Positions 5,213-27,201 of a stretch of 28,948 bases of DNA are shown here, in pieces. The stretch is from the IMG/VR virus record IMGVR_UViG_3300027917_000143, positions 1 through 28,948 of that record; one strand, given 5' to 3'. The notes beneath the pieces are model-generated. The model was not told the DNA's origin. It did not search any database and saw only the letters and a program-made list of their open reading frames with translations. Both the position numbers and the translations under genes were made by a program. Numbering within the stretch: the stretch's first letter is position 1; every line of letters begins with the position of its first letter. The DNA is from a virus.

Positions 5213-5653
5213 ATGGCTGCCGTTGGAAAATTTATAAAACTACAACATTTAGAAGTTGACCCACCAGTAACTTTTACAAATAGTTATAATGTCGCACTAC
5301 GAATTGATATACCACTACCCACAGGTGTTTATGATTTGGGTGTAAAAAGATTAGTTGGTATAGTAGGTCAGGTAAGATTGTTTGGAAACAATCAAACAGG
5401 TGGAGCAAAGAACCTATCTATCTTCTGGTCTAAAAACCAAGCAGGCACGGATCTTCTTTTTGAAGATCTAACCAAGCCTGTATTTACTTCTCCATTCTCT
5501 CCAACAGATTGGGTTGTAGATTTTGAATACGATAAAATGATGGTAATAAAACCAGAGGAACACCCCGAAGGAACCATCAGTTTATTTGGTGTTGTCTCGT
5601 CAGGCACACTAACTTGTAACCACCTTGATTTCTATTGGGAAGATATAGGTTGA
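5213..5653 (+). CDS. Small beta-rich virion protein, paralogue of 6507-6932
   Basis: 146 residues, starting 1 nt after the giant gene's stop with AAGGAAAG just upstream, so it is probably translated from the same message. The protein is beta-rich. It shares its start (MAxxGKFI), a central SKNQAG/TKDSAG segment, and the ending P-E-x-H-x-GT-SLF followed by a Trp-Glu tail with the protein at 6507-6932. The two look like copies of one structural fold, perhaps a capsid or tail decoration protein. No enzymatic motif is seen. Its stop overlaps the first copy of the late motif (5650-5671). Confidence 0.7.
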   Translation: MAAVGKFIKLQHLEVDPPVTFTNSYNVALRIDIPLPTGVYDLGVKRLVGIVGQVRLFGNNQTGGAKNLSIFWSKNQAGTDLLFEDLTKPVFTSPFSPTDWVVDFEYDKMMVIKPEEHPEGTISLFGVVSSGTLTCNHLDFYWEDIG

Positions 5654-5671
5654 CGATTACTATTATTATGA
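5650..5671 (+). promoter_or_regulatory. Late motif copy 1 (TTGACG-N10-TTATGA)
   Basis: TTGACG at 5650-5655, ten bases, then TTATGA at 5666-5671. This is one of five plus-strand copies, each ahead of a late gene group. It overlaps the stop of the preceding gene and lies 16 bases before the ATG at 5688. The Shine-Dalgarno GAGG follows directly, which leaves little room for a leader. Promoter function is inferred. Confidence 0.5.
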
Positions 5672-5687
5672 AAGAGGAAAAATAATT

Positions 5688-6476
5688 ATGTCTTATGGAG
5701 ATCCATACGCAGCAGAACAAGCAGCAGCAGCAGGAACAGAAGATTTATCTTGGGAAGTTCTTGATGTAAACGGCGCAGAATGGACTTTATCCAATCCCAG
5801 CGCATTTGGAACACCTGCTTATTCTACTGATGAGGCAGGAAACACAAAACTATCTTGGGCTAATAATAATGTTACAAGTGATAATATTATTACTTTCCAA
5901 TCTAATTTTGACGGACCCAGAATTTATGTCCCACTATCACGACCAGATGGAACACCTTATCGCTTTGATGATTTCCCTGATGGAAACATCACGCTTCGTA
6001 TAAAGTGTGAGAACTTTGTTAGACCAGCAGACGAAGCAGGAGGGAGCAATCCACTATTGGGTGCTGTGCTTGGGTTGTGTAGTGACCCTACACTTACGAG
6101 CAGACAGATCGTTGGTGGTATGAACCTAAATGGTTTGGGCTGGGGATACACAGGTGTAACTTCAAACAGAACTTTTTATGCCTATTGTAATTCCGCACAG
6201 AACCAACTTTCTAATACAAACCAACGAACTGCTATTGCCTCTCTTACTTTGGCTGGTAATGGTGGTGGTGCTGTTGATGTTTTGACTTTTAGTGCTACTG
6301 GAAATAACGAGATTAGAAATTCAAGAAATACAAATGTCTATCCATTAGCAACAAGAACAGGACAAATTTATTTATGTCTTGGATGGGGTGGATATTCTGT
6401 TGGTAGTGATATTACTGGCGCAGAACTTACCGCAAAGATTTCATACAAGATCATATCTTTTGATACGATCACATAA
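5688..6476 (+). CDS. Structural protein, fibre- or decoration-like, unknown
   Basis: 262 residues with a GAGGAAAA Shine-Dalgarno at about 5674. After an Ala-rich N-terminus (PYAAEQAAAAGTEDLSWEVL) the protein is rich in Gly, Asn, Ser and Thr with alternating beta-strand pattern, as in phage surface or fibre domains. No catalytic motif is visible. It sits between two paralogous small structural proteins and directly behind a late-motif copy, which supports a virion role. The exact function is not recognised. Confidence 0.65.
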   Translation: MSYGDPYAAEQAAAAGTEDLSWEVLDVNGAEWTLSNPSAFGTPAYSTDEAGNTKLSWANNNVTSDNIITFQSNFDGPRIYVPLSRPDGTPYRFDDFPDGNITLRIKCENFVRPADEAGGSNPLLGAVLGLCSDPTLTSRQIVGGMNLNGLGWGYTGVTSNRTFYAYCNSAQNQLSNTNQRTAIASLTLAGNGGGAVDVLTFSATGNNEIRNSRNTNVYPLATRTGQIYLCLGWGGYSVGSDITGAELTAKISYKIISFDTIT

Positions 6477-6506
6477 TAAAACCATATAGAAGAAGGAGAA
6501 GATATT

Positions 6507-6932
6507 ATGGCTAAAATAGGAAAATTTATACACAGAGCAGAATGGGAAGGAACCCAAGCAATTGGAACTGCCTATCTCGCATCAGGAGCAGGACAGGAAC
6601 TTATTGTAAATCAGTCATCTGGTTATGGTGAGGGCTTGACTGGTAGACTTTCACATCTACTTCTAAACTTTTCAGGGGCAGGTGCTAATACAAAGATGAC
6701 TGCCTTTCTTACCAAGGATAGTGCTGGGGATGAAGTTATTGTTCCAGAAACAGAGATGACTATTACTTATGGTAGAGCCACCGCAGGAACAGGTGGATGT
6801 GCCGCAAGATTGAATGTTGATATTAGACTTCTACCCACCGAACTACACAACGGCACTTCACTATTTATCTGGGTGAAGACAGATGCCGCAGCCGCAACCC
6901 TTACAGACGCTCGTTTGTTCTGGGAGGAATAG
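6507..6932 (+). CDS. Small beta-rich virion protein, paralogue of 5213-5653
   Basis: 141 residues with a strong Shine-Dalgarno (AAGGAGAAG) upstream. It starts MAKIGKFI and ends with a Thr-Leu-Thr strand and a Phe-Trp-Glu-Glu tail, matching the start and end of the protein at 5213-5653. The shared segment TKDSAG / SKNQAG lies in the middle of both. The fold is probably a beta-sandwich. The copy may be specialised, since the N-terminal halves have diverged. Structural role is inferred from position. Confidence 0.7.
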   Translation: MAKIGKFIHRAEWEGTQAIGTAYLASGAGQELIVNQSSGYGEGLTGRLSHLLLNFSGAGANTKMTAFLTKDSAGDEVIVPETEMTITYGRATAGTGGCAARLNVDIRLLPTELHNGTSLFIWVKTDAAAATLTDARLFWEE

Positions 6933-6936
6933 TGGA

Positions 6937-7155
6937 ATGGAATTGGAGATCCTTGGATTATTAGCAACACCAGCAGGGACAGCAGCCGTAGCCATCTGGT
7001 TCGTCCATAAGTTTATGGCTTTCCACAAAGATGCTGTTGATAAATGTTTGAATGACGCAGAAGAAGATAGAAAATTATTTAGGGAGGCGATCAACAAGAT
7101 TGATGTTCGCTTATCCTATTTGGAAAAACTTGTAGAAAAGATTATGGAGAAATAA
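6937..7155 (+). CDS. Holin-like membrane protein
   Basis: 72 residues from the ATG at 6937. I chose this start over an in-frame upstream ATG at 6883 because GGGAGGAAT lies just before it and the upstream ATG is inside the previous gene. One hydrophobic segment (residues 8-27, LLATPAGTAAVAIWFVHKF region) is followed by a charged amphipathic helix or coiled coil to the C-terminus. One membrane span plus a charged tail suits a small phage holin or holin-like protein. The next gene also encodes a hydrophobic N-terminus, which would fit a lysis cassette. No endolysin is found beside it, so the holin call is tentative. Confidence 0.6.
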   Translation: MELEILGLLATPAGTAAVAIWFVHKFMAFHKDAVDKCLNDAEEDRKLFREAINKIDVRLSYLEKLVEKIMEK

Positions 7156-7156
7156 A

Positions 7157-7327
7157 ATGCTACAAACAATAAAAGACTTTTTAGAGAAACACAAAGTATC
7201 AGCCGCAATTGTAGGAACTGCTGTTGTTCTATCAACCGCATATGGTTCTTGTTCTTATGATTATGTTGAGAAAGATGTAACCCTTTCAGCACCCGAAGCG
7301 GAGGAACCAGCGGAGGAGACTGAATGA
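7157..7327 (+). CDS. Small membrane-anchored or lipoprotein-like protein
   Basis: 56 residues, starting 1 nt after the previous stop with GGAG upstream. A hydrophobic segment at residues 14-29 ends in YGSC with Cys32, followed by a short, acidic, Pro/Glu-rich tail. This resembles a lipoprotein signal, but Tyr at -3 is not a good lipobox residue. It could be a small outer-membrane spanin-like lysis protein given the holin-like gene before it, but the call rests only on size and position. Its TGA overlaps the next ATG (ATGA). Confidence 0.55.
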   Translation: MLQTIKDFLEKHKVSAAIVGTAVVLSTAYGSCSYDYVEKDVTLSAPEAEEPAEETE

Positions 7328-7470
7328 TTACAAGGAAACCTTACCCTCGTCCACAGACACCCAAAAAGAAAAGCCCCTCTCGTAAGCGTGGAGGGCTTGT
7401 GGTGCCGTCTAATAAACCCAGTAGGGGTATGACTGCGGGAAGAAAAACAAAGCCCTCTAAAAAGAAATGA
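7324..7470 (+). CDS. Tiny Lys/Arg/Pro-rich basic protein
   Basis: 48 residues, coupled to the previous gene by an ATGA overlap. It is very basic (many Lys-Lys-Lys, Arg and Pro; ends KPSKKK) and has no hydrophobic core, so it is probably disordered and nucleic-acid binding. It may be one of a set of small basic proteins in this genome (7480, 18020 and 18995). Function unknown; translation is supported by the overlap and intact frame. Confidence 0.5.
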   Translation: MITRKPYPRPQTPKKKSPSRKRGGLVVPSNKPSRGMTAGRKTKPSKKK

Positions 7471-7479
7471 GAGACTGAT

Positions 7480-7635
7480 ATGAGCCTATACAGAAATATA
7501 AATAAAAGAAAGAAAGCAGGAACATCAAGAAGCAAAAAGAATTCTACGATTGATCCAAAGACTTACGATAAGATGAAGAAAAAGAAAGGTGGCTTTGCTC
7601 CTAAACCAAAGAAGCAAGCCACCAAAAAGAAGTAG
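7480..7635 (+). CDS. Tiny Lys-rich basic protein
   Basis: 51 residues. It starts 10 nt after the previous stop; only weak GAGA-type purines lie before the ATG. Lys-rich throughout (ends QATKKK). The TAG stop at 7633-7635 is shared with the 3' end of the reverse-strand tRNA. Perhaps a DNA-condensing virion component or simply a charged accessory protein; function unknown. Confidence 0.5.
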   Translation: MSLYRNINKRKKAGTSRSKKNSTIDPKTYDKMKKKKGGFAPKPKKQATKKK

Positions 7636-7704
7636 AACTACTGGGACTTGAACCCAGACCATCACCTTCGTAGGGCTGTATGCTCTCCATTACACCATAG
7701 TTCC
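7633..7704 (-). tRNA. tRNA-Arg (anticodon read as ACG)
   Basis: Read on the minus strand from 7704. The acceptor stem has 7 pairs (one G-U), the D stem 4 pairs with wobbles, the D loop contains TGG, and the T arm is a perfect 5-bp stem with loop TTCAAGT. The anticodon loop CTACGAA gives ACG (Arg, CGU codons, A34 normally edited to inosine). No CCA is encoded; the discriminator base is A. The anticodon stem is weak: the two pairs farthest from the loop are C-A and A-G. It could be a divergent or decaying tRNA. CGT is common in the late genes, while the early genes use mostly AGA, which would give this tRNA a use. Confidence 0.75.
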
Positions 7705-7756
7705 ACTACATACAAATAAAATAATATTTTATATTTCTGTGTAACTGAAAAAAGAA

Positions 7757-7800
7757 AACCCCCTCTTCCAATCAATTACGAAGAGGGGGTTAGTTTTGTT
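7757..7800. terminator. Bidirectional rho-independent terminator
   Basis: A perfect 12-bp stem (AACCCCCTCTTC at 7757-7768 with its complement at 7780-7791) and an 11-nt loop. On the plus strand it is followed by a T-rich run (TTAGTTTTGTTT). On the minus strand it is followed by the complement of the A-rich run at 7748-7758. It sits between the rightward structural/lysis genes and the leftward operon, so it can stop transcription from both sides. Confidence 0.85.
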
Positions 7801-7823
7801 TGGCGGTTTTAGAATAACAACAA

Positions 7824-8147
7824 TTAGGAGGATTGTTTGTCTGTTGAAGGTGTATCGTGTTCCTTCATAATAGAGATTTCGTCAAGTAGCAAATCACATT
7901 TATGCTGTAAAATCTTTTGCTTCTCGCTTGGATCTCTAAATATATTGTAACACGATATAGTCTCCAAGTCCACCTCTAAAACCCAATCAGGAATTTTTCC
8001 TATCTTCTTTGCTTGGTGTGCTTCCCTCTCTTCCAACAGGTAAGATCGTTGGAGGACAGGATCCTGCGAGGGCTGTTTTGATTTCAGCCGTAGCAACTTC
8101 ACCCACAAGATTGCGTGTCGTCTGTATAATATATCCGTCACTATCAT
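7824..8147 (-). CDS. Hypothetical protein, overlapping frame, start uncertain
   Basis: Last frame of the leftward operon, ending at TAA 7824-7826. The open frame reaches back to 8213, where only a TTG is available. The first ATG in it is at 8147, with a weak Shine-Dalgarno, giving 107 residues. The C-terminal half (from about GKIPDWVLEVDLE) looks like ordinary protein: helical and charged. The N-terminal part overlaps the 64-codon frame at 7987-8181 in the next frame. It may be the second half of one gene split by a +1 shift or indel. No known family recognised. Confidence 0.5.
   Translation of the reverse strand: MIVTDILYRRHAILWVKLLRLKSKQPSQDPVLQRSYLLEEREAHQAKKIGKIPDWVLEVDLETISCYNIFRDPSEKQKILQHKCDLLLDEISIMKEHDTPSTDKQSS
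7865..7885 (-). promoter_or_regulatory. Minus-strand match to the late motif
   Basis: On the minus strand: TTGACG, nine bases, TTATGA, the same pattern as the five plus-strand copies and especially close to the one ahead of the capsid gene. It lies inside the coding frame of the last leftward gene and points toward the terminator and the reverse-strand tRNA. It could be a promoter for the tRNA or a chance match, since the codons spell Leu-Asp-Glu-Ile-Ser-Ile-Met. Confidence 0.3.
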
Positions 8148-8181
8148 ATCGTTGCGTGTTGTTCTCTTCACATTTAGACAT
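7987..8181 (-). CDS. Hypothetical small protein, overlapping frame
   Basis: 64 residues from the ATG at 8181, with GGAG 10 nt upstream on the minus strand, 1 nt after the nuclease stop. Its first 40 residues (MSKCEENNTQRYDSDGYIIQ...) look natural. The tail (PVGREGSTPSKEDRKNS) is less convincing, and there the alternative frame looks better. Either two overlapping genes or one gene with a +1 frameshift is possible. No family recognised. Confidence 0.5.
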   Translation of the reverse strand: MSKCEENNTQRYDSDGYIIQTTRNLVGEVATAEIKTALAGSCPPTILPVGREGSTPSKEDRKNS

Positions 8182-8182
8182 T

Positions 8183-8749
8183 TCACTTCTGCTCCTTTTG
8201 TTTTACTTTCCAATTATCACCTTCTTTCCAGAAGGTTAGACACCAACCTGCTTCAACACATTCCCAACCAATACGAACGATCTGTCCTTTGTTGTTTATG
8301 TTCCCGTCATTACAGGAAGTCTTACGCAAATTGTTTTCTTCTATATAATTTTTTAGTGTTGTTGTCTTGAACCAATACAACTTATCAGTCCATTCATTTA
8401 CAAAGATAAGATAATCTAAATGTCCTGCCTCTGTTGCGATCCACCAACCTGCTCTAACAGAACCATTATTATCTTTCCATTCCTCTATAACCATCGTATC
8501 ATATCCAAAAGTTTTTTGTTGGTTACAACCTGATAGGGTCTTTACCTCAACCCCAGTTGTGCTACGATTTTTATTCCAAAGGATATAATCGTTTTCACCA
8601 TCTAACCCAAGGTGCTGATAGATGTAGTGTGGTGTCTTCGCATAGTCTTGGATTGTTCCACGATCCTTACACCAATCAAATAATTGTTCGGCTTTCTTCT
8701 CGCCACGATCACCCTGCTTCAAGGATGTCTTGAAATTTTTTATAGTCAT
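8183..8749 (-). CDS. PD-(D/E)XK-type endonuclease
   Basis: 188 residues. The motif order fits the PD-(D/E)XK nuclease fold: an N-terminal helix with Glu17 (GDRGEKKAEQLF), Asp54 in the GENDYILW strand, and Glu68-Val-Lys70 in GVEVK. Such phage nucleases act as Holliday-junction resolvases, debranching enzymes or host-DNA-degrading enzymes. The sequence does not show which. Its ATG overlaps the stop of the sigma-like gene before it (ATGA), so the two are coupled. Resolution of branched DNA before packaging is a plausible role (inference). Confidence 0.7.
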   Translation of the reverse strand: MTIKNFKTSLKQGDRGEKKAEQLFDWCKDRGTIQDYAKTPHYIYQHLGLDGENDYILWNKNRSTTGVEVKTLSGCNQQKTFGYDTMVIEEWKDNNGSVRAGWWIATEAGHLDYLIFVNEWTDKLYWFKTTTLKNYIEENNLRKTSCNDGNINNKGQIVRIGWECVEAGWCLTFWKEGDNWKVKQKEQK

Positions 8750-9360
8750 TCTACTTCCCCCTTTATCTTGTTTAGGAAATCTCTTCTGTGAAGGTAAAAA
8801 GTTTTCTTGGTTACAGAACCTTCTGGATAATTTACGAGCCTACCATCTTCCCATTCCAAGTCTATGAGATCCATAGAATAAAGATAAATAAACTTCTCTC
8901 TTTCAGTAGCAAAGTTGTCTACATAGTTTTTGATTACATCAATAATATCATTTGTTTCAAACATCAATTCTCCTAATGGTGTTGTGGCTACAAGCAATTC
9001 ATATTCAGGCTGGTAAGTGAAGCAAAGTTTTTTCTTTGCTTCTTGTTGACCGACCACGAATTCTCTATAATATAAACGACCAACAAAAGCCTTGACCTCA
9101 ACCTTTACCCAAGATCTAAAAGACTTCTGTAATCCAATATCGTTCCAGTCCCAATAGTCAGTAAGCCACTTGTCCCTGAACCTATTGGTGCTGCTTCTGT
9201 TGTGGGTCTTGATGTGAAGCCATAGTTCGCTGGCGAAGTCTTCAAGATCCCAAGACTTATAATGTAGGATGGTTCCCAATTTGTTATGAGGGGACAACAT
9301 CCTGTATGTTATTTCTTTACAGACTTGTAATAACTTCAAGTCAACAAAATCATTTTTCAT
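8746..9360 (-). CDS. Sigma-factor-like transcription protein (regions 2 and 4)
   Basis: 204 residues, first gene of the leftward operon, with GGAG 8 nt before the ATG on the minus strand. Residues 38-54 (WDLEDFASELWLHIKTH) match the region 2.2 pattern of ECF-like sigma factors. Residues 81-100 (FRSWVKVEVKAFVGRLYYRE) match the region 2.3-2.4 pattern. The C-terminus (about 150-200) ends in a helix-turn-helix-like stretch (SVTKKTFYLHRRDFLNKI) in the place of region 4. It probably binds host RNA polymerase core and redirects it. Overall similarity is weak by eye, so a divergent sigma is inferred rather than proven. Confidence 0.6.
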   Translation of the reverse strand: MKNDFVDLKLLQVCKEITYRMLSPHNKLGTILHYKSWDLEDFASELWLHIKTHNRSSTNRFRDKWLTDYWDWNDIGLQKSFRSWVKVEVKAFVGRLYYREFVVGQQEAKKKLCFTYQPEYELLVATTPLGELMFETNDIIDVIKNYVDNFATEREKFIYLYSMDLIDLEWEDGRLVNYPEGSVTKKTFYLHRRDFLNKIKGEVE

Positions 9361-9413
9361 TTTCTAATCTCCTAACTGATTTGATATTCAAGTCCCGCCA
9401 AGGACTTATAAAA

Positions 9414-9697
9414 ACTGAACTAACTAACTACTACATTATAGCATTTTATTAGTAGGTTCGCAACACTTATGGAAAAAAAACTACAACTTTTTTTCCTGTG
9501 CTATTAGTAAGTAGTATCTAAAAAAAAATTATACCCATCATCTAAAATTATTTTCTTTTTTTTTCTACTACCACTACTACTGATCTCAACTTCTTGTCCT
9601 GTGTATATAGTGTAGGGGATGAAAGTAGTAGCGCATCTCGGTCTACACCATATAGGGTGATAAACTAATAACTGATAATCTACTGAACTAACTAACT
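9414..9697 (+). repeat. 16-bp direct repeat within AACT-rich DNA
   Basis: ACTGAACTAACTAACT occurs at 9414-9429 and 9682-9697. Shorter AACTAACT/ACTAACTA units continue from 9690 to about 9795, with a 4-base period. They could be iteron-like protein sites or low-complexity leader DNA. Confidence 0.6.
9435..9463 (-). promoter_or_regulatory. Sigma70-type promoter for the leftward operon
   Basis: On the minus strand: -35 TTGCGA (complement of 9458-9463), 17-bp spacer, -10 TATAAT (complement of 9435-9440). The -10 is perfect and the -35 matches 4 of 6. It is 75 bases upstream of the sigma-like gene start and points the right way. Confidence 0.65.
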
Positions 9698-9742
9698 TAC
9701 TAACTAAAAAAACTAACTGATAAACTTATATAACTAACAAAC

Positions 9743-9770
9743 GATTGATTGATCCAAAAATCAATCAATC
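9743..9770. repeat. Perfect 11-bp inverted repeat
   Basis: GATTGATTGAT (9743-9753), six bases (CCAAAA), ATCAATCAATC (9760-9770). It lies 26 bases upstream of the Shine-Dalgarno of the first rightward gene. It can act as an RNA hairpin in the leader or as a protein binding site. There is no T-run after it, so a terminator is unlikely. Confidence 0.7.
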
Positions 9771-9812
9771 AAACTTTCATAACTAATAACTAACCAAGGA
9801 GGTGACTAACTT

Positions 9813-10052
9813 ATGAATGCTGATACTAACAAACTAACTTCTAAATTAGATACTGAAACTAATAAAGAATATAAATTAGATGACTACCAAGAACCTTCAC
9901 CCTCATTACATTCGGGTTCAGGTTCATACCAACAAGAAGAATATTACAGACACCTAAATGATAAAATCAAATCTAATAAAATTAGAAATGAAACTTTACT
10001 AATTTGGTTTTCTGGATATGTGTTTGGTTTCTTGTTGGGATTTGTTTTCTAA
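9813..10052 (+). CDS. Early C-tail-anchored membrane protein
   Basis: 79 residues. The Shine-Dalgarno AAGGAGGTGA at 9796-9805 is the strongest in the window, 7 nt before the ATG, so high expression is likely. Residues 1-60 are polar and Ser/Asn/Lys-rich. Residues 61-79 (LLIWFSGYVFGFLLGFVF) form one membrane span that ends the protein, as in tail-anchored proteins. First gene of the rightward early block. It could be an early host-takeover or superinfection-exclusion protein, but no family is recognised. Confidence 0.65.
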   Translation: MNADTNKLTSKLDTETNKEYKLDDYQEPSPSLHSGSGSYQQEEYYRHLNDKIKSNKIRNETLLIWFSGYVFGFLLGFVF

Positions 10053-10132
10053 CAAAACAAATCTCCCTTACAGGCTAATCAAACAAACAGGTGAGGTGAC
10101 TAACATAACAATAATAGAAAGGAGAATTGAAT

Positions 10133-10570
10133 ATGTTGAGAAGAAAGAAAAAAAGAAATACTAACTGGAAAGAAGAACTTGATAGGTTAGATAAAGAAAC
10201 ACAACTGAAAGATAATTGGAGATATGTTCCAGTAGGTTTAGATACTTGGAAGATAGATTACCAGCACAACTATGATCCTACTGATGAGATGATTGAGAGG
10301 ATAGATAGAAAGAATAATCCAGAAGAAAATAATATTATAAATAAAGAACTTCCTTCTGGTGTTGAGATGATTGAAAGATTAGATCCTATCAAACAGAAAG
10401 TTGTATTCTATTATCTCTGGGATGGTTTATCATTCAGTAAGATTGGAAAGATTATGAACCTAACCAAGCAACGAATACATCAAATCTATTGGTCTGCTAT
10501 TGAGGATCTCAAAGAAATTTATGGAGGTGATAATGTCTTCTATGATTTCTTTGTTGGAGAGGAGGAATAA
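10133..10570 (+). CDS. Sigma70 region-4 helix-turn-helix protein
   Basis: 145 residues from the ATG at 10133. An in-frame TTG at 10127 is too close to the AAAGGAG site at 10118-10124. The N-terminus is Lys/Arg-rich. Residues 83-127 match sigma70 region 4: LDPIKQKVV..YLWDGLSFSKIGKIMNLTKQRIHQI...AIEDL, with the typical IG-x3-L-T-x2-RI-x-QI helix-turn-helix. No clear region 2 is seen, so it is either a divergent small sigma or a region-4-like regulator of host RNA polymerase. Position in the early region suits an early-to-late transcription switch (inference). Confidence 0.75.
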   Translation: MLRRKKKRNTNWKEELDRLDKETQLKDNWRYVPVGLDTWKIDYQHNYDPTDEMIERIDRKNNPEENNIINKELPSGVEMIERLDPIKQKVVFYYLWDGLSFSKIGKIMNLTKQRIHQIYWSAIEDLKEIYGGDNVFYDFFVGEEE

Positions 10571-10579
10571 AAAAAAGAT

Positions 10580-10888
10580 ATGAGATATGAAGAAGGAGAA
10601 CTGATACTTCCCAGACATAACATACATCAAGATCATTATGGTTTAGGAATTGTATTAGAACAACTAACATTAGAACATCCAGACAACTGGAATGATGAAG
10701 AAGAAAACTTACAGGAAATAATATTAGACCTATACGAACACGGCTTCTATGATAATATAGATAATATTACCCAGCAAGAACATCTCCTAATTTACTTTAC
10801 GAGAATAGGAAATAAAATAATTCTTCCAAAAGATTGGATAGATAAAACCTATACAAGACATAGCAACAAAACAAAAGGAGAAGCATAA
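10580..10888 (+). CDS. Small SH3-like early protein
   Basis: 102 residues, 9 nt after the previous stop, with GGAGG upstream. It has a short-barrel pattern: GELILPRHN near the N-terminus, then GLGIVLEQL, and a C-terminal strand pair IYFTRIGNKIILPKDWI. The order G-x-hydrophobic, GIVL-[DE], then a strand ending near a Gly is shared with the proteins at 11681 and 12169. Function unknown; such small SH3-like proteins can bind nucleic acid or host proteins. TAATG overlap with the next gene. Confidence 0.6.
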   Translation: MRYEEGELILPRHNIHQDHYGLGIVLEQLTLEHPDNWNDEEENLQEIILDLYEHGFYDNIDNITQQEHLLIYFTRIGNKIILPKDWIDKTYTRHSNKTKGEA

Positions 10889-11043
10889 TGTCCCAGCAAG
10901 AAGTAGATATTGTAACCCTACTATCAGGTGTAATTCATTTACTAACACAACCACAGGAAGATGGAGAAGAACTTTCTATGTGGGTGTTAGAACAAGCAAC
11001 CAAGATCAGGAAAGATTTATTGGAACAGAATACTGAAAAATAA
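10888..11043 (+). CDS. Small helical early protein
   Basis: 51 residues, overlapping the previous stop by 1 base (TAATG), with AAAGGAGAAG upstream. Two amphipathic helices are likely (residues 5-20 and 30-48). No motif recognised. The overlap and Shine-Dalgarno support translation. Confidence 0.6.
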   Translation: MSQQEVDIVTLLSGVIHLLTQPQEDGEELSMWVLEQATKIRKDLLEQNTEK

Positions 11044-11051
11044 ATAATTTA

Positions 11052-11080
11052 TATACAGCATTATGCTGTGTGTTTATAAT
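11052..11080 (+). promoter_or_regulatory. Sigma70-type promoter with palindrome in its spacer
   Basis: TATACA (11052-11057), 17-bp spacer, TATAAT (11075-11080). The palindrome CAGCATTATGCTG (11056-11068) covers the end of the -35 and the first half of the spacer, where a bound repressor would block RNA polymerase. Promoter call from sequence; operator is inferred. Confidence 0.55.
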
Positions 11081-11088
11081 ATAAATAT

Positions 11089-11128
11089 GGGACTTTCTAA
11101 TAGATTTTATTATCTATCAGTCAGTCCC
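11089..11128 (+). ncRNA. Structured leader hairpin
   Basis: Directly downstream of the promoter at 11052-11080. GGGACT (11089-11094) pairs with AGTCCC (11123-11128), and ATAGAT (11100-11105) pairs with ATCTAT (11112-11117) inside, with a 5x5 internal loop. The RNA from here to the next gene (11129-11296) has no gene of its own, and that stretch also contains the next promoter. It could be a leader or a small RNA. Confidence 0.4.
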
Positions 11129-11243
11129 TAATTTGCTGTAAACCCTTGATATATCAGGCTTTTCGTAAGGTTTGTAGTGTTGCTCCACTTCGCTCTTTCA
11201 GTCAAGGTCTTCAAATTATTTACTAAAAAGTTGTAGTTTCTTG

Positions 11244-11272
11244 TAGACAATCCCCCAATTTCGTGTTATAAT
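11244..11272 (+). promoter_or_regulatory. Sigma70-type early promoter A
   Basis: TAGACA (11244-11249), 17-bp spacer, TATAAT (11267-11272). The bases TAGACAATCCC are identical to those in promoter B at 11546. It lies 24 bases upstream of the ATG at 11297. Confidence 0.8.
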
Positions 11273-11296
11273 ATATATATAAACAAAGGAGATTTT

Positions 11297-11527
11297 ATGA
11301 ATTTATTTACCGAGGATGTGAAGCAACCATTCACCCACCTGATCCCATTTATCCAGCACACCTGCTCGCAAGTTGCTGATGAATTATATTTTATAAATCC
11401 TCCGCTACGATTTATGGGTCAGGTCGTTACGCAGATCCTCCTGAAAGAAAAATGTATTTATATTGATTATGGTAGTGATGGTAATATCCGTCTACCAGTC
11501 AGCACCACGATGCTAAAACTAATTTGA
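11297..11527 (+). CDS. Small early protein, unknown
   Basis: 76 residues with AAAGGAGA 7 nt upstream of the ATG, own promoter just before. An N-terminal helix (residues 1-30) is followed by beta-strands (KCIYIDYGSDGNIRLPVS). No family recognised. Its own strong promoter suggests early, high expression. Confidence 0.65.
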   Translation: MNLFTEDVKQPFTHLIPFIQHTCSQVADELYFINPPLRFMGQVVTQILLKEKCIYIDYGSDGNIRLPVSTTMLKLI

Positions 11528-11545
11528 AAAAAAGAAAAAAAGTAG

Positions 11546-11574
11546 TAGACAATCCCAAAAATATATGGTATAAT
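11546..11574 (+). promoter_or_regulatory. Sigma70-type early promoter B
   Basis: TAGACA (11546-11551), 17-bp spacer, TATAAT (11569-11574), with the same TAGACAATCCC block as promoter A. It drives the gene at 11681 through a leader of about 100 bases. Confidence 0.8.
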
Positions 11575-11610
11575 ATATGTATAGATAGTTGAGAAAAAGT
11601 AGTAGTTTTC

Positions 11611-11680
11611 TTTTTTAGATACTATTTATAGTATAGGCACTTGGCGGTGCCTCGTAATAGACAACAACAAGGAGAATAAA
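11611..11680 (+). promoter_or_regulatory. Leader element copy A with hairpin
   Basis: A T-run, then the inverted repeat ATACTAT-TT-ATAGTAT (11619-11634), then the hairpin GGCAC/GTGCC (11636-11640 with 11647-11651, loop TTGGCG). The whole block down to ATGTCTAAAA is repeated ahead of the gene at 12169. It can be a second promoter (TATAGTAT as -10), an operator, or an RNA leader element. The paired changes in the stem favour an RNA role. Confidence 0.55.
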
Positions 11681-12046: not shown

Positions 12047-12062
12047 ATAAATAAAATAAATT

Positions 12063-12098: not shown

Positions 12099-12100
12099 TT

Positions 12101-12160: not shown

Positions 12161-12168
12161 GAATATAT

Positions 12169-12606: not shown

Positions 12607-12629
12607 GTCAATCCTCCTGTAATGACTTG

Positions 12630-12659
12630 CCCCCTTCCAGAAATGGTTGGGGGTTTTTT
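12630..12659 (+). terminator. Rho-independent terminator ending the early region
   Basis: CCCCC-TT-CCA stem, GAAA loop, TGG-TT-GGGGG (12630-12653), followed by six T (12654-12659). It separates the early genes from the terminase operon, which has its own late motif just downstream. Confidence 0.9.
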
Positions 12660-12696: not shown

Positions 12697-12717
12697 TTGA
12701 CCTTTACTACATTATGA
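12697..12717 (+). promoter_or_regulatory. Late motif copy 2 (TTGACC-N9-TTATGA)
   Basis: TTGACC (12697-12702), nine bases (TTTACTACA), TTATGA (12712-12717). It lies 39 bases before the terminase small-subunit ATG and directly after the early-region terminator, so a start of transcription is needed here. A TATAAT lies further downstream (about 12723) with a 20-base gap from TTGACC, too wide for a usual sigma70 promoter. Confidence 0.55.
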
Positions 12718-12756
12718 GAACATATAATAAATAAATTATATGAAGGAGATTATGAT

Positions 12757-14542: not shown

Positions 14543-14782
14543 ATGGAAGAAAGAAAACCTGCTAATGAAAAAGAATTGAAGCCCCTGTATGCTTCATCAC
14601 TTCGTCTTGTAACACCAGAAGGTTTCTGTCGTTGTGTGAAATGCCGCAAAGCATTTCCACCAGAAGCATTTTTCAAAAAAGATATTTTTGAAAATGACGA
14701 AGGTTTTTGTAAGGATTGTATCAAGAACTATGGAAGAGATTTCCTACACTTGACCTTTCCTAATAATGTGAAGGGAAAATAA
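14543..14782 (+). CDS. Small Cys4 zinc-finger protein
   Basis: 79 residues, directly after the TerL stop with AGGAGA upstream. Two CxxC pairs (CVKC near residue 31 and CKDC near residue 56) with about 22 residues between. The pattern resembles the small zinc fingers found near HNH nucleases, but no His-Asn-His follows. It lies between terminase and portal, so it is possibly a packaging or DNA-binding accessory protein. Confidence 0.7.
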   Translation: MEERKPANEKELKPLYASSLRLVTPEGFCRCVKCRKAFPPEAFFKKDIFENDEGFCKDCIKNYGRDFLHLTFPNNVKGK

Positions 14783-19331: not shown

Positions 19332-19491
19332 AACGGGCAACCTTTCCCTCCGTCAATCAATAGAACCTACGGGTCACCTTGCGATTACTAAAATGGTGAA
19401 GGAACTAAATAAGTAAAAATCCCACAGGGACACTTTGAAGATTTAGATAAATCCAAACAAACCATACTAAATTATAAAGGATGAAAATATT
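19332..19491 (+). promoter_or_regulatory. Long leader of the capsid gene
   Basis: 160 bases without a convincing gene. Possible weak stems: ACGG/CCGT near 19333-19356 and TCACC/GGTGA (about 19375-19400). It may stabilise or control the capsid mRNA. No strong single structure is seen. Confidence 0.35.
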
Positions 19492-20508: not shown

Positions 20509-20538
20509 TCATAGTTTCAAATATAAGGAGAATAAATT

Positions 20539-21090: not shown

Positions 21091-21124
21091 TCACCAAAGC
21101 AAAGTAACAGGATAAAGGAGAACT

Positions 21125-21208
21125 ATGCCCCTTCCCCTCGCTGGGGTTGGGGCTTTTTCTTTATCACTTGACTTTTACTATATATTGAAGACGAGGAAAC
21201 CTTTATGA
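21125..21208 (+). CDS. Possible leader peptide running through a terminator
   Basis: 27 residues (MPLPLAGVGAFSLSL...). AAAGGAG lies 6 nt before the ATG. The frame covers the terminator stem (21127-21153) and the late motif, and its TGA overlaps the ATG of the adaptor gene (ATGA). If translated, ribosomes would melt the terminator stem and feed the next gene. It may also be a chance frame; no homologue is known to me. Confidence 0.35.
   Translation: MPLPLAGVGAFSLSLDFYYILKTRKPL
21127..21162 (+). terminator. Rho-independent terminator after the cement gene
   Basis: GCCCC-TT-CCCC stem, loop TCGCT, GGGG-TT-GGGGC (21127-21153), followed by TTTTTCTTT. Nine G-C pairs around a TT/TT mismatch. It separates head and tail units. 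Confidence 0.9.
21168..21188 (+). promoter_or_regulatory. Late motif copy 4 (TTGACT-N9-TATTGA)
   Basis: TTGACT (21168-21173), nine bases (TTTACTATA), TATTGA (21183-21188), a slightly changed second half. It lies directly after the terminator and 16 bases before the adaptor ATG. Confidence 0.5.
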
Positions 21209-22737
21209 ACCTAACAGCAATTAGAGAAAAAATAAAAAACATTACTGACTATTCCCCAGATTTACAAGCATTCAACGAACAACTTGATGAGATTGTAAAT
21301 GATGCTTACTATTCTATCTGGACGCAGAAGCGTTGGACTTTTGCTACTGAAACCATACCATTTAGATTTTTCGTAGATATTCTCCCAGACAGAGATAATG
21401 AGAATGTCGTTGCTCCTGCTACTTCTGTTGGGGCTATTTGGGTTCAGGGTGAACGACTTGTAAACTTTCAGTTTCCAATTGATAGACTAACCAAAGTTGG
21501 AACACTTGAAGGAAGAGATGTATGGGAAGGACAGCCCATTACAATTGAGAACAGAGAATATATTATTGAGAAAGTTGTTCTTGGAAATCAAATTATTGTA
21601 GACGAACCTATCGTTGCTCCTGCTCCATTAGCAGGCACATATTCTTATAACTGGTATATCAAAAAGAGATGGTATGATCTTCCAGAAGATCTACTTGAAT
21701 TGTTATTCTTGGGTCACCGAGATTACCCCTATAACACCTCCGCAGGTTCTTATCCACCCTACGGCAAGGCTACTGCTATTATGCCTCGTAGAGAGGAACA
21801 GATAGACCTACGAGCCGATTACAAAGCATCCTACGCAGAAGCATATATCTGGTCGCCAAGTCGCTTTGTAAAGCCAGCAGAGCGTTTGAAAATAAACATT
21901 CTTCAAGATGTTGGTGTTGGTTGGAACGCTAATGGATATTATGAATTTTGCTGGGCTTTTCTAAAAGATGGAAAGATTGGATCGTTGAGCGAACCTACTA
22001 TCGCCCAACAGAACGCAGAAGGAAATAATGCTTTTGTTTTCCAGTTCTATGGTTGGGATGATGAACTAATTGTTGCTGATGCTTACAACAACGAAGATGA
22101 AAGACCAACACCTTGGCGTGGTTACAGAAAGGTTTTGTTCTGGAATAAAAACTTTGATAGTGTTACTGGTGAACGCAAAGGTCTACCTTGCTGGATACAA
22201 GTTCGTAATGGTGGAAATACCAGAAACAGCGAAATCTACAACGAACCTGTTGTTGTAAATGATGAGGCTAATGCTTACACACTTGCTTATTTCAATCAGT
22301 TAGACAACGGACAGAAGCGTTATATTGAGATTGACGGACAGCATCAGCAGATCCGTCCTTATCCCCGTGTTGATGGTTTTGATGAGGAAATAGCACAAGC
22401 AAAGAACGATCAAGTTATTCAAACATTCCACGACTTCCGTAGAGATGGGATTATCCGTTATTACAGAAAGCCAAAGGATCTTCTGCTTGGAACTGATAGT
22501 CCTGATATGCCTTACGAATTTCACCAACTAATTGTCTACAAAGCACTTGAAGATATTTATTTGAAATTGGGACAGGATACTTTATCCAGCACATATGCTC
22601 GTAGAATTGAGAACGAGATGAAAACATTACAGAAAAGATATGTAGACCATATTGATAGTAATGTTCGTAGAGGTCAGTTCGGTTCAACCAGAAGAGGATT
22701 TATCTACGACTACCAGTCACTAAAACACTTGGGGTAA
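21205..22737 (+). CDS. Tail tube adaptor-like protein with inserted domain
   Basis: 510 residues. N-terminal helices (1-45: an AIREKIKN...IVNDAYYSIW pattern) and C-terminal helices (434-485: MPYEFHQLIVYKALEDIYLK ...) resemble the helical bundle of T7 gp11-like adaptors that attach to the portal. T7 gp11 is about 200 residues, so this protein is much longer. The extra middle (about 225-330) has a fibronectin-type strand pattern (YYEFCWAFLKDGKIGSLSEP). Starts on the TGA of the leader frame. Role: joins portal to nozzle. Confidence 0.75.
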   Translation: MNLTAIREKIKNITDYSPDLQAFNEQLDEIVNDAYYSIWTQKRWTFATETIPFRFFVDILPDRDNENVVAPATSVGAIWVQGERLVNFQFPIDRLTKVGTLEGRDVWEGQPITIENREYIIEKVVLGNQIIVDEPIVAPAPLAGTYSYNWYIKKRWYDLPEDLLELLFLGHRDYPYNTSAGSYPPYGKATAIMPRREEQIDLRADYKASYAEAYIWSPSRFVKPAERLKINILQDVGVGWNANGYYEFCWAFLKDGKIGSLSEPTIAQQNAEGNNAFVFQFYGWDDELIVADAYNNEDERPTPWRGYRKVLFWNKNFDSVTGERKGLPCWIQVRNGGNTRNSEIYNEPVVVNDEANAYTLAYFNQLDNGQKRYIEIDGQHQQIRPYPRVDGFDEEIAQAKNDQVIQTFHDFRRDGIIRYYRKPKDLLLGTDSPDMPYEFHQLIVYKALEDIYLKLGQDTLSSTYARRIENEMKTLQKRYVDHIDSNVRRGQFGSTRRGFIYDYQSLKHLG

Positions 22738-22744
22738 TAAGTAA

Positions 22745-25048
22745 ATGGCTTTGAAAACAAAAACAATACAATTCGTTCAGGCGGCTGGATTAGACCAAAG
22801 ATGGAAAGGTTCTATTGGTTATGCTGATAATGTAACCAATATGAGAATTGATCCTAATGGTCTTGGTTGGGTTGCTGATCGTGGTATAGAAAGTTGGTGG
22901 AAATTTCCAAGTTCATTTACTATTGTAGGCAACGCAACAAGTATTACAGAAAATTTGCTTTATCCCACAGATGCTTGTTTTATTTGGGAGAAGTCTTCAA
23001 CAGGACAGATATATTATTTCTGGGAGAGAGCAGGTAAACTGATTTATGCTTGGGGTAATAAAAACCAAGGATCAACTTATTCAGGAAACTATTACTACAA
23101 CGATTTTGTTTATCTTGATAGTGATAGACACAATAGAAAAACAAATGATTTAGGAACCCAGTTTATTCCTTATGGTAATAGACTTCTAATCATCAACGGC
23201 TACGACAAGCCTATCTGGTTTAGCGGTAATGAAGATTATAGGCAGTTTGGTTTTTCAATTGCTACACCTTCCGTTCAAGCAACTGCTATTCAGCCTGATT
23301 ATCTATCAGGTCAACAACTTGAAATTGGTTCTGCTTTCCCTGTCTTTGGTGAGAAATCTACACTTGGTCTTGGTTCTCTTGATAATGAGAGATCACAATT
23401 CAATTATTATATGACTACTATTACAGAGGACGGAGCAGAAAGTCCACCTTCTTCTGTAACATCAGTAGACTGGATAGTTGCCTCAAACGCATCACAACCA
23501 GACGAACAAAGACGATTTGGTGTTGTTCTTTATGTTCCACAAGGAGCAGAGGGAACTGCTGCTCGTAGAATATACAGAACTAAAAATATAAAAAGAACTG
23601 GTGCTACTGATAGTAATGATAGTGTATTCTACTTTGTAAAAGAAATAGAAGATAATTCTACCACACACTTTATTGATATAATCCCAGATACTTCACTAAC
23701 AGCACAAGCCCCAGAGAACTTTGCTTCTTCTCGTATCAATACAACCTACAAGGTTGGTGCTACTTGGGACAACCGCATTTGGCTTGCTGGTGGAGACAGC
23801 ACACCTACAAGAATTATTTATAGTGATAAAGGTATACCAGAACAATTTGGTTCTTTCTCTTTCTTTGATGTTGGTAATAGTCAGGGAGGACACATCGTTC
23901 AGTTGTATCCTTACTACAATAACCTTCTTGTATTCCGTCGTAATGCTATTGAGATCATCAGGCGTGACGGACAGGGACTTCCAACTATCTCTACATTAGC
24001 AAGTAACTTGGGAACAGAAGCAGGCAACGCAATTTGTAATGTTCCTAATATGGGTATAATGTTTTTGAATGAAGAAGGTATTTGGCTAATATCTGGTGGT
24101 CTTGATGGTGGTTCATCTGTAACCATTACCAAAGTTAGTGAGACACTTGATAAAGAAATACAAAAAATAAATACCGCAGCAATCCAAAGATCTTGGGCTT
24201 GTTATTCTAAAAAGGAACGTGAGGCTTGGTTCCACTTCCCACAGGACAGCAATTCAATTCCAACAAGAGGAATTGTATTCCATTTAGATAATAACCAGTT
24301 CTCTGCGAGAGGAGCAGTAAATAATGCTAATGAAAATTTGTTTAGATTTACTTGTGCTGCTGCTGATCCAGAGGGTCATTTTGTTTTCGGTCAAGCACCA
24401 AAATGGACTGGGCTTGGAGGGGGTGTTGGATCCCCTATTGTTATTGGCTCTTTTGGTATTGGTGTTTCACCCTTGGCTGTATGGTCTGGTTCTCCAAACT
24501 TCGGTCAAACCTTTTTAGTAAATTCCTTCAATCAGGATACAGCAACCTATAATGTAGCGAATGTAAATAAACCAGAGAGCCTTTGGGAAAGTAACTGGAT
24601 AGACTTTGGAGACAACAGCATAAAACATCGTGTTTATTCTGTTGAGGTTGAACTTCTATCTTATGGAGACAATCCACTACAACTACAATACGCTACTGAT
24701 TATGATGCTACATTCACAACAGCAGGCGAGCAAAAACAAGCCCTAAATGAAAGGGTTTTTACATCAAAAGAAGATCCCGTGTTTGGAGCCAGCGATCCTA
24801 CAATCAGTAAGAATTTCTTTACAATAAACCAAAGTTCTCTACAAGATGGACGCATTATTAGGCTACGCTATGATGTAAATACACAACTGGTAAATCAGTT
24901 CAAGTTTAGAATAAAAACACAACCAGCAATAACAGGATCACCTGCTAATTCTACTTTCCATTTGCTTTCCTTCCATATCAATTACGACAGCAGAGATCAA
25001 ATGGCTCTAAACCAGAATACAAGATTACAGAAGGGGCAAGCAAGATAA
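22745..25048 (+). CDS. Tail nozzle protein (T7 gp12-like)
   Basis: 767 residues, beta-rich. N-terminal ADNVTNMRIDPNGLGWVADRG resembles the propeller start of T7 gp12-like nozzle proteins. A fibronectin-type insertion (about 220-320: YYMTTITEDGAESPPSSV) follows, then propeller repeats (NRIWLAGG, NNLLVFRRNAIEIIRR, GIMFLNEEGIWLIS). Directly behind the adaptor gene, as in short-tailed phages. It forms the tail tip that opens into the host. Confidence 0.8.
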   Translation: MALKTKTIQFVQAAGLDQRWKGSIGYADNVTNMRIDPNGLGWVADRGIESWWKFPSSFTIVGNATSITENLLYPTDACFIWEKSSTGQIYYFWERAGKLIYAWGNKNQGSTYSGNYYYNDFVYLDSDRHNRKTNDLGTQFIPYGNRLLIINGYDKPIWFSGNEDYRQFGFSIATPSVQATAIQPDYLSGQQLEIGSAFPVFGEKSTLGLGSLDNERSQFNYYMTTITEDGAESPPSSVTSVDWIVASNASQPDEQRRFGVVLYVPQGAEGTAARRIYRTKNIKRTGATDSNDSVFYFVKEIEDNSTTHFIDIIPDTSLTAQAPENFASSRINTTYKVGATWDNRIWLAGGDSTPTRIIYSDKGIPEQFGSFSFFDVGNSQGGHIVQLYPYYNNLLVFRRNAIEIIRRDGQGLPTISTLASNLGTEAGNAICNVPNMGIMFLNEEGIWLISGGLDGGSSVTITKVSETLDKEIQKINTAAIQRSWACYSKKEREAWFHFPQDSNSIPTRGIVFHLDNNQFSARGAVNNANENLFRFTCAAADPEGHFVFGQAPKWTGLGGGVGSPIVIGSFGIGVSPLAVWSGSPNFGQTFLVNSFNQDTATYNVANVNKPESLWESNWIDFGDNSIKHRVYSVEVELLSYGDNPLQLQYATDYDATFTTAGEQKQALNERVFTSKEDPVFGASDPTISKNFFTINQSSLQDGRIIRLRYDVNTQLVNQFKFRIKTQPAITGSPANSTFHLLSFHINYDSRDQMALNQNTRLQKGQAR

Positions 25049-25779
25049 TGTCTAAACACTATACAGAAAAACCAAATGTTCGTTTCAGTCAAGTAAAAAG
25101 TGAAAACCTAAACGACAATATAACAAAAACATTAGGCGAGGTAAATGGAAATCTAAATTCTAATAATCTTCCTGTTGATGCTCTAACATTTGATAAGTTT
25201 TCTTCTCCCAACAGAACATCACTAACTTCTAATGCTACAACTAAATTAGATTATGAAGGGGCTACACAAGATTACCATAGTGTTAGACGCTGGAATACTT
25301 TTGAAGACAGCAACGATATGTGGGAGCCAGTTGAAAGTATCAATCTACAAACAGAGAACTGGTCTACGGGCTGGAATAAATTAGTAGATTTTGGAAGTAT
25401 GGATTATACCTTTTTAGATTTTGATGCGAAGGAAGGTATACTTACGGGCTGTGCTGTTATTGATTTCCACCACGGATTAGATAGAATTGTTTATCAAAGT
25501 GATGATACAACCTTCCGTGTTTTTTATGGATATGATTGGTGGACTGAATGGGGTGTGTTTGTAAATGATACACTTGTAGCAGAAACTTCTTGGATTTATG
25601 CTCGTAGGATTACTTGTAATATTCCATTCAAAGTTCCTGTTGGATCACAGAAAGTAAAAATAGATTTGCGTTGGAGAGCAGTAACCAGTAATGCTGTTGG
25701 AACACCATATCAAGGAAACCCAACAAGACCACTTGATATATTTGGAGCGCACATTTGGGTCAGGAATGTAAAGAGGTAA
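25048..25779 (+). CDS. Tail fibre/spike-like protein 1
   Basis: 243 residues. TAATG overlap with the nozzle gene. N-terminal segment with SENLNDNITKTLGEVNGNLNSN, probably a virion-binding helix, then a beta-sandwich-like domain (from about 85 to the end) with a YDWWTEWGVFVNDTL strand. Ends in a beta-strand with a terminal Arg. Probably a host-contact protein. Confidence 0.6.
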   Translation: MSKHYTEKPNVRFSQVKSENLNDNITKTLGEVNGNLNSNNLPVDALTFDKFSSPNRTSLTSNATTKLDYEGATQDYHSVRRWNTFEDSNDMWEPVESINLQTENWSTGWNKLVDFGSMDYTFLDFDAKEGILTGCAVIDFHHGLDRIVYQSDDTTFRVFYGYDWWTEWGVFVNDTLVAETSWIYARRITCNIPFKVPVGSQKVKIDLRWRAVTSNAVGTPYQGNPTRPLDIFGAHIWVRNVKR

Positions 25780-25783
25780 TAAT

Positions 25784-26464
25784 ATGGGACAGATAAATTT
25801 TACAAAATTTAGAGAAGGAGACACACCAGACGCTACTGGTCTAAATGCTCCTTATGATGATCTTGCTGCTGTATCAATTGAAAAAGAAAATACAAAACCA
25901 AACTGGGCTACAAGAGCGCACTTTGATGATACAGGTGAGAAAGCAAATGAATTATTCTTTTATGACTATGATGGTGTATCTGCTTTCCAAACAACCAACA
26001 CAAACTACCAAGTTGTAATAAATGCTGGAACCCCAAGTAGAATTACTTTTCCAGCAGGAACCAGTATGGATGGCGCACACATAATTCGTGCTGGGGCTTC
26101 GGGTATTATTGGAGATATTATTTGTAATACTGATGGGAACGGAGATGGAACACAAGATAGTTATAACTATTTTTCTTTCCGTCTGTTAGTAACTTATAAT
26201 GTAGGTGGAGGAAACCTAACTGATGTTATTGCTGAATGTGGTTATTCTTACACAAGACGATCAAGACTAACCAACGACAGCACAGGTTTAGATAGTGCTT
26301 TGTGGTGGAGGAACTTTTCTTTCTCTGGATTGTGGGCTGTTCCAAATAATAATACACAAATTATTTCAATACAACTTGAAGCAAAAGTAGGACCGAATGG
26401 TGGTGCTGGTAATCAACTTGATGTTACAAGAAATAATATCAACGCAGTTTTGGTGAGGAACTAA
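25784..26464 (+). CDS. Tail fibre/spike-like protein 2
   Basis: 226 residues, 4 nt after protein 1. N-terminus INFTKFREGDTPDATGLNAPYDDLAAVSIEK resembles the attachment segment of phage fibres, then a beta-rich C-terminal domain ending in NAVLVRN. Shape and place match proteins 1 and 3. Confidence 0.6.
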   Translation: MGQINFTKFREGDTPDATGLNAPYDDLAAVSIEKENTKPNWATRAHFDDTGEKANELFFYDYDGVSAFQTTNTNYQVVINAGTPSRITFPAGTSMDGAHIIRAGASGIIGDIICNTDGNGDGTQDSYNYFSFRLLVTYNVGGGNLTDVIAECGYSYTRRSRLTNDSTGLDSALWWRNFSFSGLWAVPNNNTQIISIQLEAKVGPNGGAGNQLDVTRNNINAVLVRN

Positions 26465-26465
26465 T

Positions 26466-27176
26466 ATGGCTTTCGTAAAACCCTACAATTATATAAACAA
26501 CCAAGTTTTAGAAGATACAAACCAACGCTCTAATGAAGAAGCGGCAAAGGTTTATGTGAACCAAGAAATTGTTGCTGCTGATTATGGAACTAATTTAGAT
26601 TATACAGAGATAGAAGCAGGAGAATTCCTACCAGTTACAAACGATCATAAGTTTGCTTCGTCCTTTATCGCAGGACAAAACATTTCAAATGATAATATTG
26701 ATAGGGCTTACTTTACTTCTACAACAAAAGCAAATAACCAAACATCAGCCAGTTCAGTTGTTTATCGGGATTTGTATGGATGTGGTAAAAAAATCAAACT
26801 GGATAGGTCAGCACAAGTTCTTGTAACTTTCCAAGCAGCATTTATCGCAGGAGATAATAGTAATACTACTGGTGGTGATGGTTCAGGTATGTGGGAAAAT
26901 AGGGTTGTTCTACGCCACACAGATTATACTACATCAAATCCTACGCCAGTATATATTGCTGGAACAAGAGGATATGTCTTTGAAGGTGCTGGCGCATCAT
27001 TAGGTCTGCTAAATCCTAACGCTGGTGGGACTGCCGCAAACAGAAGACAAGTCCAGCATCAGTATGTTTTATCTTTATCAAGAGGCGAACACGACTTACA
27101 AATCGCAGTCAATCCAAAAGTAGAATATGGTTGGACTTCTGCGAGAAACTTTTTAGTTGAGGTCTTCTATCTATAA
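26466..27176 (+). CDS. Tail fibre/spike-like protein 3
   Basis: 236 residues, 1 nt after protein 2. N-terminal helix region (residues 1-35), then beta-rich domain with Gly/Asn/Thr-rich loops, ending in a strand (FLVEVFYL). Last gene before a late motif. The three proteins are not close in sequence but similar in size and plan. Confidence 0.6.
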   Translation: MAFVKPYNYINNQVLEDTNQRSNEEAAKVYVNQEIVAADYGTNLDYTEIEAGEFLPVTNDHKFASSFIAGQNISNDNIDRAYFTSTTKANNQTSASSVVYRDLYGCGKKIKLDRSAQVLVTFQAAFIAGDNSNTTGGDGSGMWENRVVLRHTDYTTSNPTPVYIAGTRGYVFEGAGASLGLLNPNAGGTAANRRQVQHQYVLSLSRGEHDLQIAVNPKVEYGWTSARNFLVEVFYL

Positions 27177-27180
27177 GGAC

Positions 27181-27201
27181 TTGACTTATTCACTATTATG
27201 A
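27181..27201 (+). promoter_or_regulatory. Late motif copy 5 (TTGACT-N9-TTATGA)
   Basis: TTGACT (27181-27186), nine bases (TATTCACTA), TTATGA (27196-27201). The Shine-Dalgarno of the next gene (GAGGAA) begins on its last bases, 12 bases before the ATG at 27214. That would leave a very short leader. Confidence 0.55.

Follow-up and report, generated by a model that had tools for sequence, protein, structure and literature searches.

The IMG/VR record IMGVR_UViG_3300027917_000143, a stretch of viral DNA of 28,948 bases that was analysed at its whole length and is referred to below as the window, contains a recurrent motif, TTGACB-N9/10-TTATGA, ahead of genes encoding virion proteins. This raises the question of whether the copies of the motif are promoters specified by the phage and, if so, which RNA polymerase reads them. 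Results of our analysis indicate that the motif family comprises seven discrete sites in the window (5650, 12697, 14750, 19310, 21168 and 27181 on the plus strand and 7885 on the minus strand), which, as judged from sequence, very probably constitute a genuine family of late promoters of the phage. With more reserve, we favour the complete model in which these promoters would be read by the host core RNA polymerase with a 204-aa sigma-like protein of the phage. The late genes are split into units by the motif sites, and almost all units of virion genes are headed by one:

5650..5673, plus strand: motif site ahead of small virion/lysis-like genes (262-aa, 141-aa and holin-like)
7865..7885, minus strand: motif site by exact pattern, synteny and weight matrix
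12697..12719, plus strand: motif site of the terS/terL unit, TTGACCTTTACTACATTATGAGA, with an intrinsic terminator (12634-12653) just upstream
14750..14774, plus strand: motif site of the portal-to-scaffold unit, TTGACCTTTCCTAATAATGTGAAGG, just upstream of the portal gene, with orthologues in G001, G004, L009, L011, L014 and L016
19310..19331, plus strand: motif site of the capsid unit by exact pattern, synteny and weight matrix
21168..21190, plus strand: motif site of the tail unit, TTGACTTTTACTATATATTGAAG, with a terminator-like stem (21136-21152) upstream
27181..27203, plus strand: motif site of the ejection-gene unit, in which GAGG doubles as a Shine-Dalgarno sequence

The motif is a genuine feature, and its frequency greatly exceeds that expected by chance. 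When counted on both strands, its exact form occurs five times (at 5650, 12697, 19310 and 27181 on the plus strand and at 7885-7865 on the minus strand) versus 0.04 occurrences expected, and none of 100 dinucleotide shuffles reached five. Four of the five plus-strand copies listed in the initial annotation are exact, whereas the fifth, at 21168 (TTGACTTTTACTATATATTGA), departs from the pattern and belongs to the family by synteny; the list was also incomplete, as it lacked the family sites at 14750 and 7885. Syntenic alignments with relatives, which are free of selection by the refined 5' half, allowed us to refine the motif to TTGAC-N-WWW-N-CW followed by about six A/T bases and a purine run, the consensus form with the 5' flank being [A]CTTGAC-N-TTT-N-CT. 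The second half of the motif shifts by one base between sites. The refined 5' half, TTGACNWWWNCW, has exactly seven matches in the window, each of them a family site (2.05 expected; seven were reached in 2 of 100 shuffles), and its invariance in the position table is partly by construction, because the sites were picked with it. We also built a weight matrix from 31 sites in relatives further removed from the window, with neither the window nor its closest relative, G001, in the training set. The seven sites scored 18.1-26.9 bits, and the best position elsewhere in the window reached 9.0 bits; the matrix maximum over 200 shuffles had a mean of 11.7 bits and a 95th percentile of 16.6 bits. The minus-strand copy and the copy at 14750 overlap in part with small reading frames, which would suit a chance or codon-driven similarity, but the excess of exact copies, the gap of 9 bits between family and other positions and the synteny across diverged genomes leave this explanation practically negligible.

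No cultured member of the lineage represented by the window was found in the collections searched. The cultured-phage collection gave no DNA match to the window and no protein match for its tail protein or either of its two sigma-like proteins, and the best matches of terminase and capsid protein in it were of only 24-27% identity. A search of bacterial genomes for relatives of the terminase, aimed at host identification, gave none. In IMG/VR, 73 terminase relatives of 48-90% identity were found. The closest one, G001 (30,132 bases), is circularly permuted relative to the window, and each of these two records spans the ends of the other, save for about 1.4 kb of ejection genes that are present in G001 and missing from the window. 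The window as a self-closing circle was rejected, since it is at the junction that this sequence is missing. Because the two records overlap each other's ends, the gene content of the genome of about 30 kb is known: it includes the genes for terminase, portal, capsid, tail and ejection proteins, together with a few small early genes.

A search for the motif at equivalent places in related phages, suggested in the initial annotation, revealed orthologous sites in G001, G004, L009, L011-L017, L092, L093, L096 and L112. Within the reach of each record, they are retained ahead of terS or of the portal, capsid, tail or ejection genes, and this synteny persists at terminase identities as low as 67-69%. 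When IMG/VR was scanned with the pattern, the records with two or more exact matches all belonged to this phage group, whereas matches in non-relatives were single and scattered. Many TTGACTTTTACT-like repeats occupy a short stretch (9200-10000) of L116, a 32.9-kb viral contig, which is unrelated.

The strongest functional argument for a promoter role, as far as sequence allows, comes from the capsid gene. At ten motif-bearing loci, that of the window among them, the motif stands ahead of this gene without any sigma70 promoter (no TTGACN-16/18-TANNNT was found upstream of the motif-clade capsid genes), whereas at 17 sister loci the motif is absent and TTGACA-17-TANNNT is located at -117 to -131. 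At no locus do the two occur together, and deeper lineages have neither. In the sister phages (L042, L045, L053, L055, and others), the sigma70 promoters precede the same capsid gene and have the TTGAC core in common with the motif, but their 17-bp spacer and TANNNT are both missing from the latter. The capsid leaders of these sister phages have their own conserved hairpin-like stretch, CATTCCACAGGAATACGG, past the promoter.

This exchange bears on the alternative that the motif is an operator, an RNA-processing site or some other repeated signal and no promoter. Such a role would be in line with the location of the motif near the start codons of several genes, whose Shine-Dalgarno sequences it includes, but not with the mutual exclusion of the motif and a canonical promoter at the capsid gene, with the location of the motif after terminators, or with the copy that heads a minus-strand stretch ending in a terminator, and we regard it as quite improbable. 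Neither is the motif an extension of the ribosome-binding site, because its distance to the start codon varies across sites from 31 to about 180 bases. The idea of a phage-specified late promoter, put forward in the initial annotation, is well supported by the strand and position of the sites, the two upstream terminators, the synteny and the exclusive swap at the capsid gene; promoter activity, binding and timing of the sites are what we infer from these features.

The arrangement of the sites suggests where transcription would start. The start codons (ATG) of the portal, tail and ejection genes lie only 31-42 bases from the first motif base, and the visible Shine-Dalgarno sequence (GAGG, AAGGG) overlaps or follows the motif end. 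It would be removed from the transcript by a start 7 bases past a -10 in the A/T stretch or by a sigma70 start at about position 36. In the predicted minus-strand RNAs, the 5' arm of a hairpin begins at motif positions 19-21. Hairpins as good were obtained in none of 40 shuffles for L011 (GTGAGAGG/CCTTTCAC), in 1 of 40 for G004, in 4 of 40 for the window and in 8 of 40 for both G001 and L015, and these counts are non-independent, because the sequences are homologous. The capsid mRNA leader has a hairpin of its own, in which three pairs are altered on both sides in L096:

19333..19353, plus strand: capsid leader hairpin ACGG...CCGT, directly past the motif, pairing in 8 of 8 sequences

Because of the Shine-Dalgarno overlap, the minus-strand 5' hairpins and the covarying capsid hairpin, we infer that the start is located within the motif, around position 19 (+/-2), which backs the earlier suggestion of a start at the 3' end of the motif and would place TTGAC-N-TTT-N-CT at -18 to -7. 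The best sub-threshold matrix match in the window (9.0 bits; 19378-19404, plus strand) also lies in the capsid leader, 68 bases past the promoter, in a conserved stretch, TGGTGAAGGAAC, and is possibly a decayed second copy of the motif or another leader element.

The spacing of 9-10 bases between the motif halves was indicated initially as being at odds with a sigma70 promoter, and this view is strengthened by the lack of a conserved -10 downstream, where the information is at background. TTGAC as a sigma70 -35 was rejected, since there is no -10 at 16-18 bases and the Shine-Dalgarno sequences would be lost; a T4 MotA-like box combined with a -10 was rejected by sequence inspection, as no -10 is present 12-13 bases further on. 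The same region is of relevance to the possibility that a phage activator bound at the motif recruits the sigma70 holoenzyme to a weak downstream -10; the region-4-only protein described below might be this activator. In favour of the idea, TTGAC is identical to a -35 core, TTGACA-17-TANNNT serves the capsid gene in sister phages, and the region-4 protein matches a PHROG of transcriptional regulators. However, no conserved -10 follows 17 bases past TTGAC, and if transcription started 7 bases past such an element, the portal, tail and ejection genes would lose their Shine-Dalgarno sequences. Moreover, the region-4 protein has relatives also in motif-less records. We consider this activator scheme a minor possibility.

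Two sigma-like proteins were proposed initially to be encoded in the window. One of them, of region 4 only, is clear, whereas the other is divergent and only weakly supported as such:

10127..10570, plus strand: protein of 147 aa in which only region 4 of sigma is present, a proposed co-factor (Pfam Sigma70_r4, 4.8e-07)
8746..9360, minus strand: divergent sigma-like protein of 204 aa, which we propose as the factor specific for the motif

The 147-aa protein has additionally a profile match to solved sigma factors (1.4e-08). Because its relatives are not confined to motif-bearing records, the 204-aa protein is the better candidate for the specificity factor. The gene encoding the latter is present in six motif-bearing records (G000, G001, G002, G004, G005, and G007), and neither the 23.9-kb G009 nor any of nine records of sister or outgroup phages (30-35 kb) has it. 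That the 204-aa protein is a sigma factor is only suggested by structure and domain comparisons. In a structural comparison, FliA was the top match of the model (Z 5.3), SigE and SigB followed at Z 4.8 over the N-terminal part, alongside unrelated folds, and residues 136-204 matched a sigma4 domain at Z 3.7. The homologue of this protein in L018 touches Pfam Sigma70_r2 (E 0.042). A second model, with the L015 homologue first, was too poor for a structure search (pLDDT 53.9). The sigma-like gene is adjoined by a gene for a 188-aa protein (8183-8749, minus strand), which is conserved further out than the sigma-like gene itself (L064, L018, L020, and L023) and by eye resembles PD-(D/E)XK nucleases, with no Pfam or PHROG match.

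Several observations weigh against the complete model, in which the motif is read by the 204-aa protein as a sigma factor. Pfam and PHROG gave no match for the protein itself, the confidence of its model is modest (pLDDT 65.8), and a Z of about 5 can be due to chance, unrelated helical folds scoring alike. A Foldseek search with the model gave no match at E <= 0.001 and no sigma factor among the 50 matches listed, and a profile comparison with phiEco32 gp36 aligned only 13 helix-turn-helix columns. G008 (L016) has the motif and no detected sigma-like gene, although it is only a fragment, of 10.9 kb, and the co-occurrence of the motif and the 204-aa gene may reflect a single ancestral gain. The 5' hairpins are individually modest compared with shuffles, and the 12-bp block, A/T stretch and purine start are equally like those of a T7-type promoter.

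The last of these points is central to a further explanation, according to which the sites are promoters for a single-subunit polymerase of T7/N4 type, supplied by a helper phage, a host element or an unrecognised virion protein. The likeness to T7-class promoters concerns the location of the block at -18 to -7, the A/T melting stretch, the purine-rich start and the 5' hairpins. As in T7, a motif of about 23 bp would extend into the transcribed region with the start inside it, in the manner of single-subunit polymerase promoters, and the capsid mRNA would begin with a hairpin, as does the leader of T7 gene 10. However, unlike in T7, a polymerase gene is missing from all records of the group that were searched: neither a single-subunit RNA polymerase (PF00940) nor a recognisable PolA-type DNA polymerase was found in the window, G001 and 15 other relatives (17 records), while the PF00940 control was positive for T7 and empty for phiEco32. 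The profile of the large, 1729-aa ejection protein had no meaningful match to any solved polymerase, and an encoded RNA polymerase, including one hidden in this protein, was rejected on these grounds. Thus, the absence of an RNA polymerase gene claimed in the initial annotation holds as far as the PF00940 search reaches, and the analogy with single-subunit polymerases drawn there has gene content against it, none being recognisable in the genome of about 30 kb. A helper-phage signature was sought in IMG/VR, but multiple exact matches are confined to this clade. In addition, the distance between the motif halves varies by one base between sites, and tolerance of such variation is not known for T7-type enzymes. 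A polymerase of this type is therefore an unlikely reader of the sites, and it is highly improbable that the phage, with its full set of virion genes, is a capsid-encoding dependent virus with promoters of T7-type architecture, whose late genes would be switched on only by a single-subunit polymerase supplied in trans by a helper phage or a host element. The 31.5-kb outgroup genome L064 contains a 423-aa frame (7278-8549, plus strand) upstream of its region-4-only sigma homologue; polymerase-like motifs can be seen in it by eye (VDIDAKASYNC, LFGNKNADFVYG, and MSYQFDGLII), and it has no significant Pfam, PHROG or PDB match.

A phage sigma factor acting on the host RNA polymerase fits better than a single-subunit polymerase. 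The host core polymerase would be used, because the phage has no recognisable polymerase of its own, and the early genes would be transcribed from ordinary host sigma70 promoters, probably including the minus-strand one:

11244..11272, plus strand: host-type sigma70 promoter of early genes, TAGACA-17-TATAAT, TG-extended, 11/12 matches
11546..11574, plus strand: second host-type sigma70 promoter of early genes, TAGACA-17-TATAAT, TG-extended, 11/12 matches
9435..9463, minus strand: host-type promoter-like site of minus-strand early genes, including the sigma-like gene, 10/12 matches, TG

Products of the early genes would include the 204-aa and the 147-aa proteins. The former would bind to the host core RNA polymerase and recognise the conserved block as one extended element of -10 type, with no -35 involved; the A/T-rich stretch past this block would melt, and transcription would start within the motif. 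The region-4-only protein may dock on the beta flap as a co-factor. In this way, the host polymerase would be redirected to the virion genes and one short minus-strand RNA.

By analogy with known systems, a phiEco32- or T4-like appropriation of the host polymerase by phage sigma proteins seems most likely. In phages phiEco32 and 7-11, late and middle promoters are read by a phage-encoded sigma factor (PMC4331800). Like phiEco32, the window phage has no recognisable single-subunit RNA polymerase of its own and encodes a candidate sigma factor of about 200 aa, and it would likewise transcribe its early genes from host sigma70 promoters and its structural genes from a short phage promoter made up of a single element. 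However, the promoter sequences differ (TGTGATGTTATA or TAATGTATA in phiEco32/7-11 vs. TTGACNTTTNCT in the window phage), the 204-aa protein has no significant sequence similarity to phiEco32 gp36, and the genome is of 30 kb, without a PolA-type DNA polymerase, compared with 77.6 kb in phiEco32. Late promoters of T4, of 8 bp, depend on gp55 and gp33, which form a split sigma (PMC2988020). The proposed system resembles them in a single -10-region element with no -35, in the use of host core polymerase and in two separate sigma-like phage proteins, one of which is region-4-like; unlike in T4, there is no evidence of a sliding clamp in the window phage.

The short RNA predicted from the minus-strand site would be delimited as follows:

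7750..7867, minus strand: predicted RNA of about 115 nt with a 5' hairpin, a CCUCCUA loop and a strong terminator (7791-7756)

The layout of a motif, a short stretch and a terminator-like hairpin recurs in G001, G004, L011 and L015. A hairpin presenting CCUCCUA, which is anti-Shine-Dalgarno-like, is found in the window, G001 and G004, and a CTCCTAA stretch in L011, L015 and L030. CCUCCU may be a mere complement of a ribosome-binding site, because the opposite strand has AGGAGG and a short frame (in G001: MSVEGLSGPFIIEISSSS). The predicted RNA had no Rfam match. Next to this minus-strand late unit lies a tRNA-Arg(acg) gene (7632-7704, minus strand), which is also present in G001 and L011.

Our results outline a concrete programme of transcription for an uncultured lineage of phages of about 30 kb and point to a candidate for its specificity factor, and the minus-strand copy of the motif predicts a conserved late small RNA. 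The sister phages constitute a natural experiment, in which the same capsid gene is preceded either by a near-perfect host promoter or by the motif, accompanied by the sigma-like gene, and promoter-specificity switching thereby becomes directly testable.

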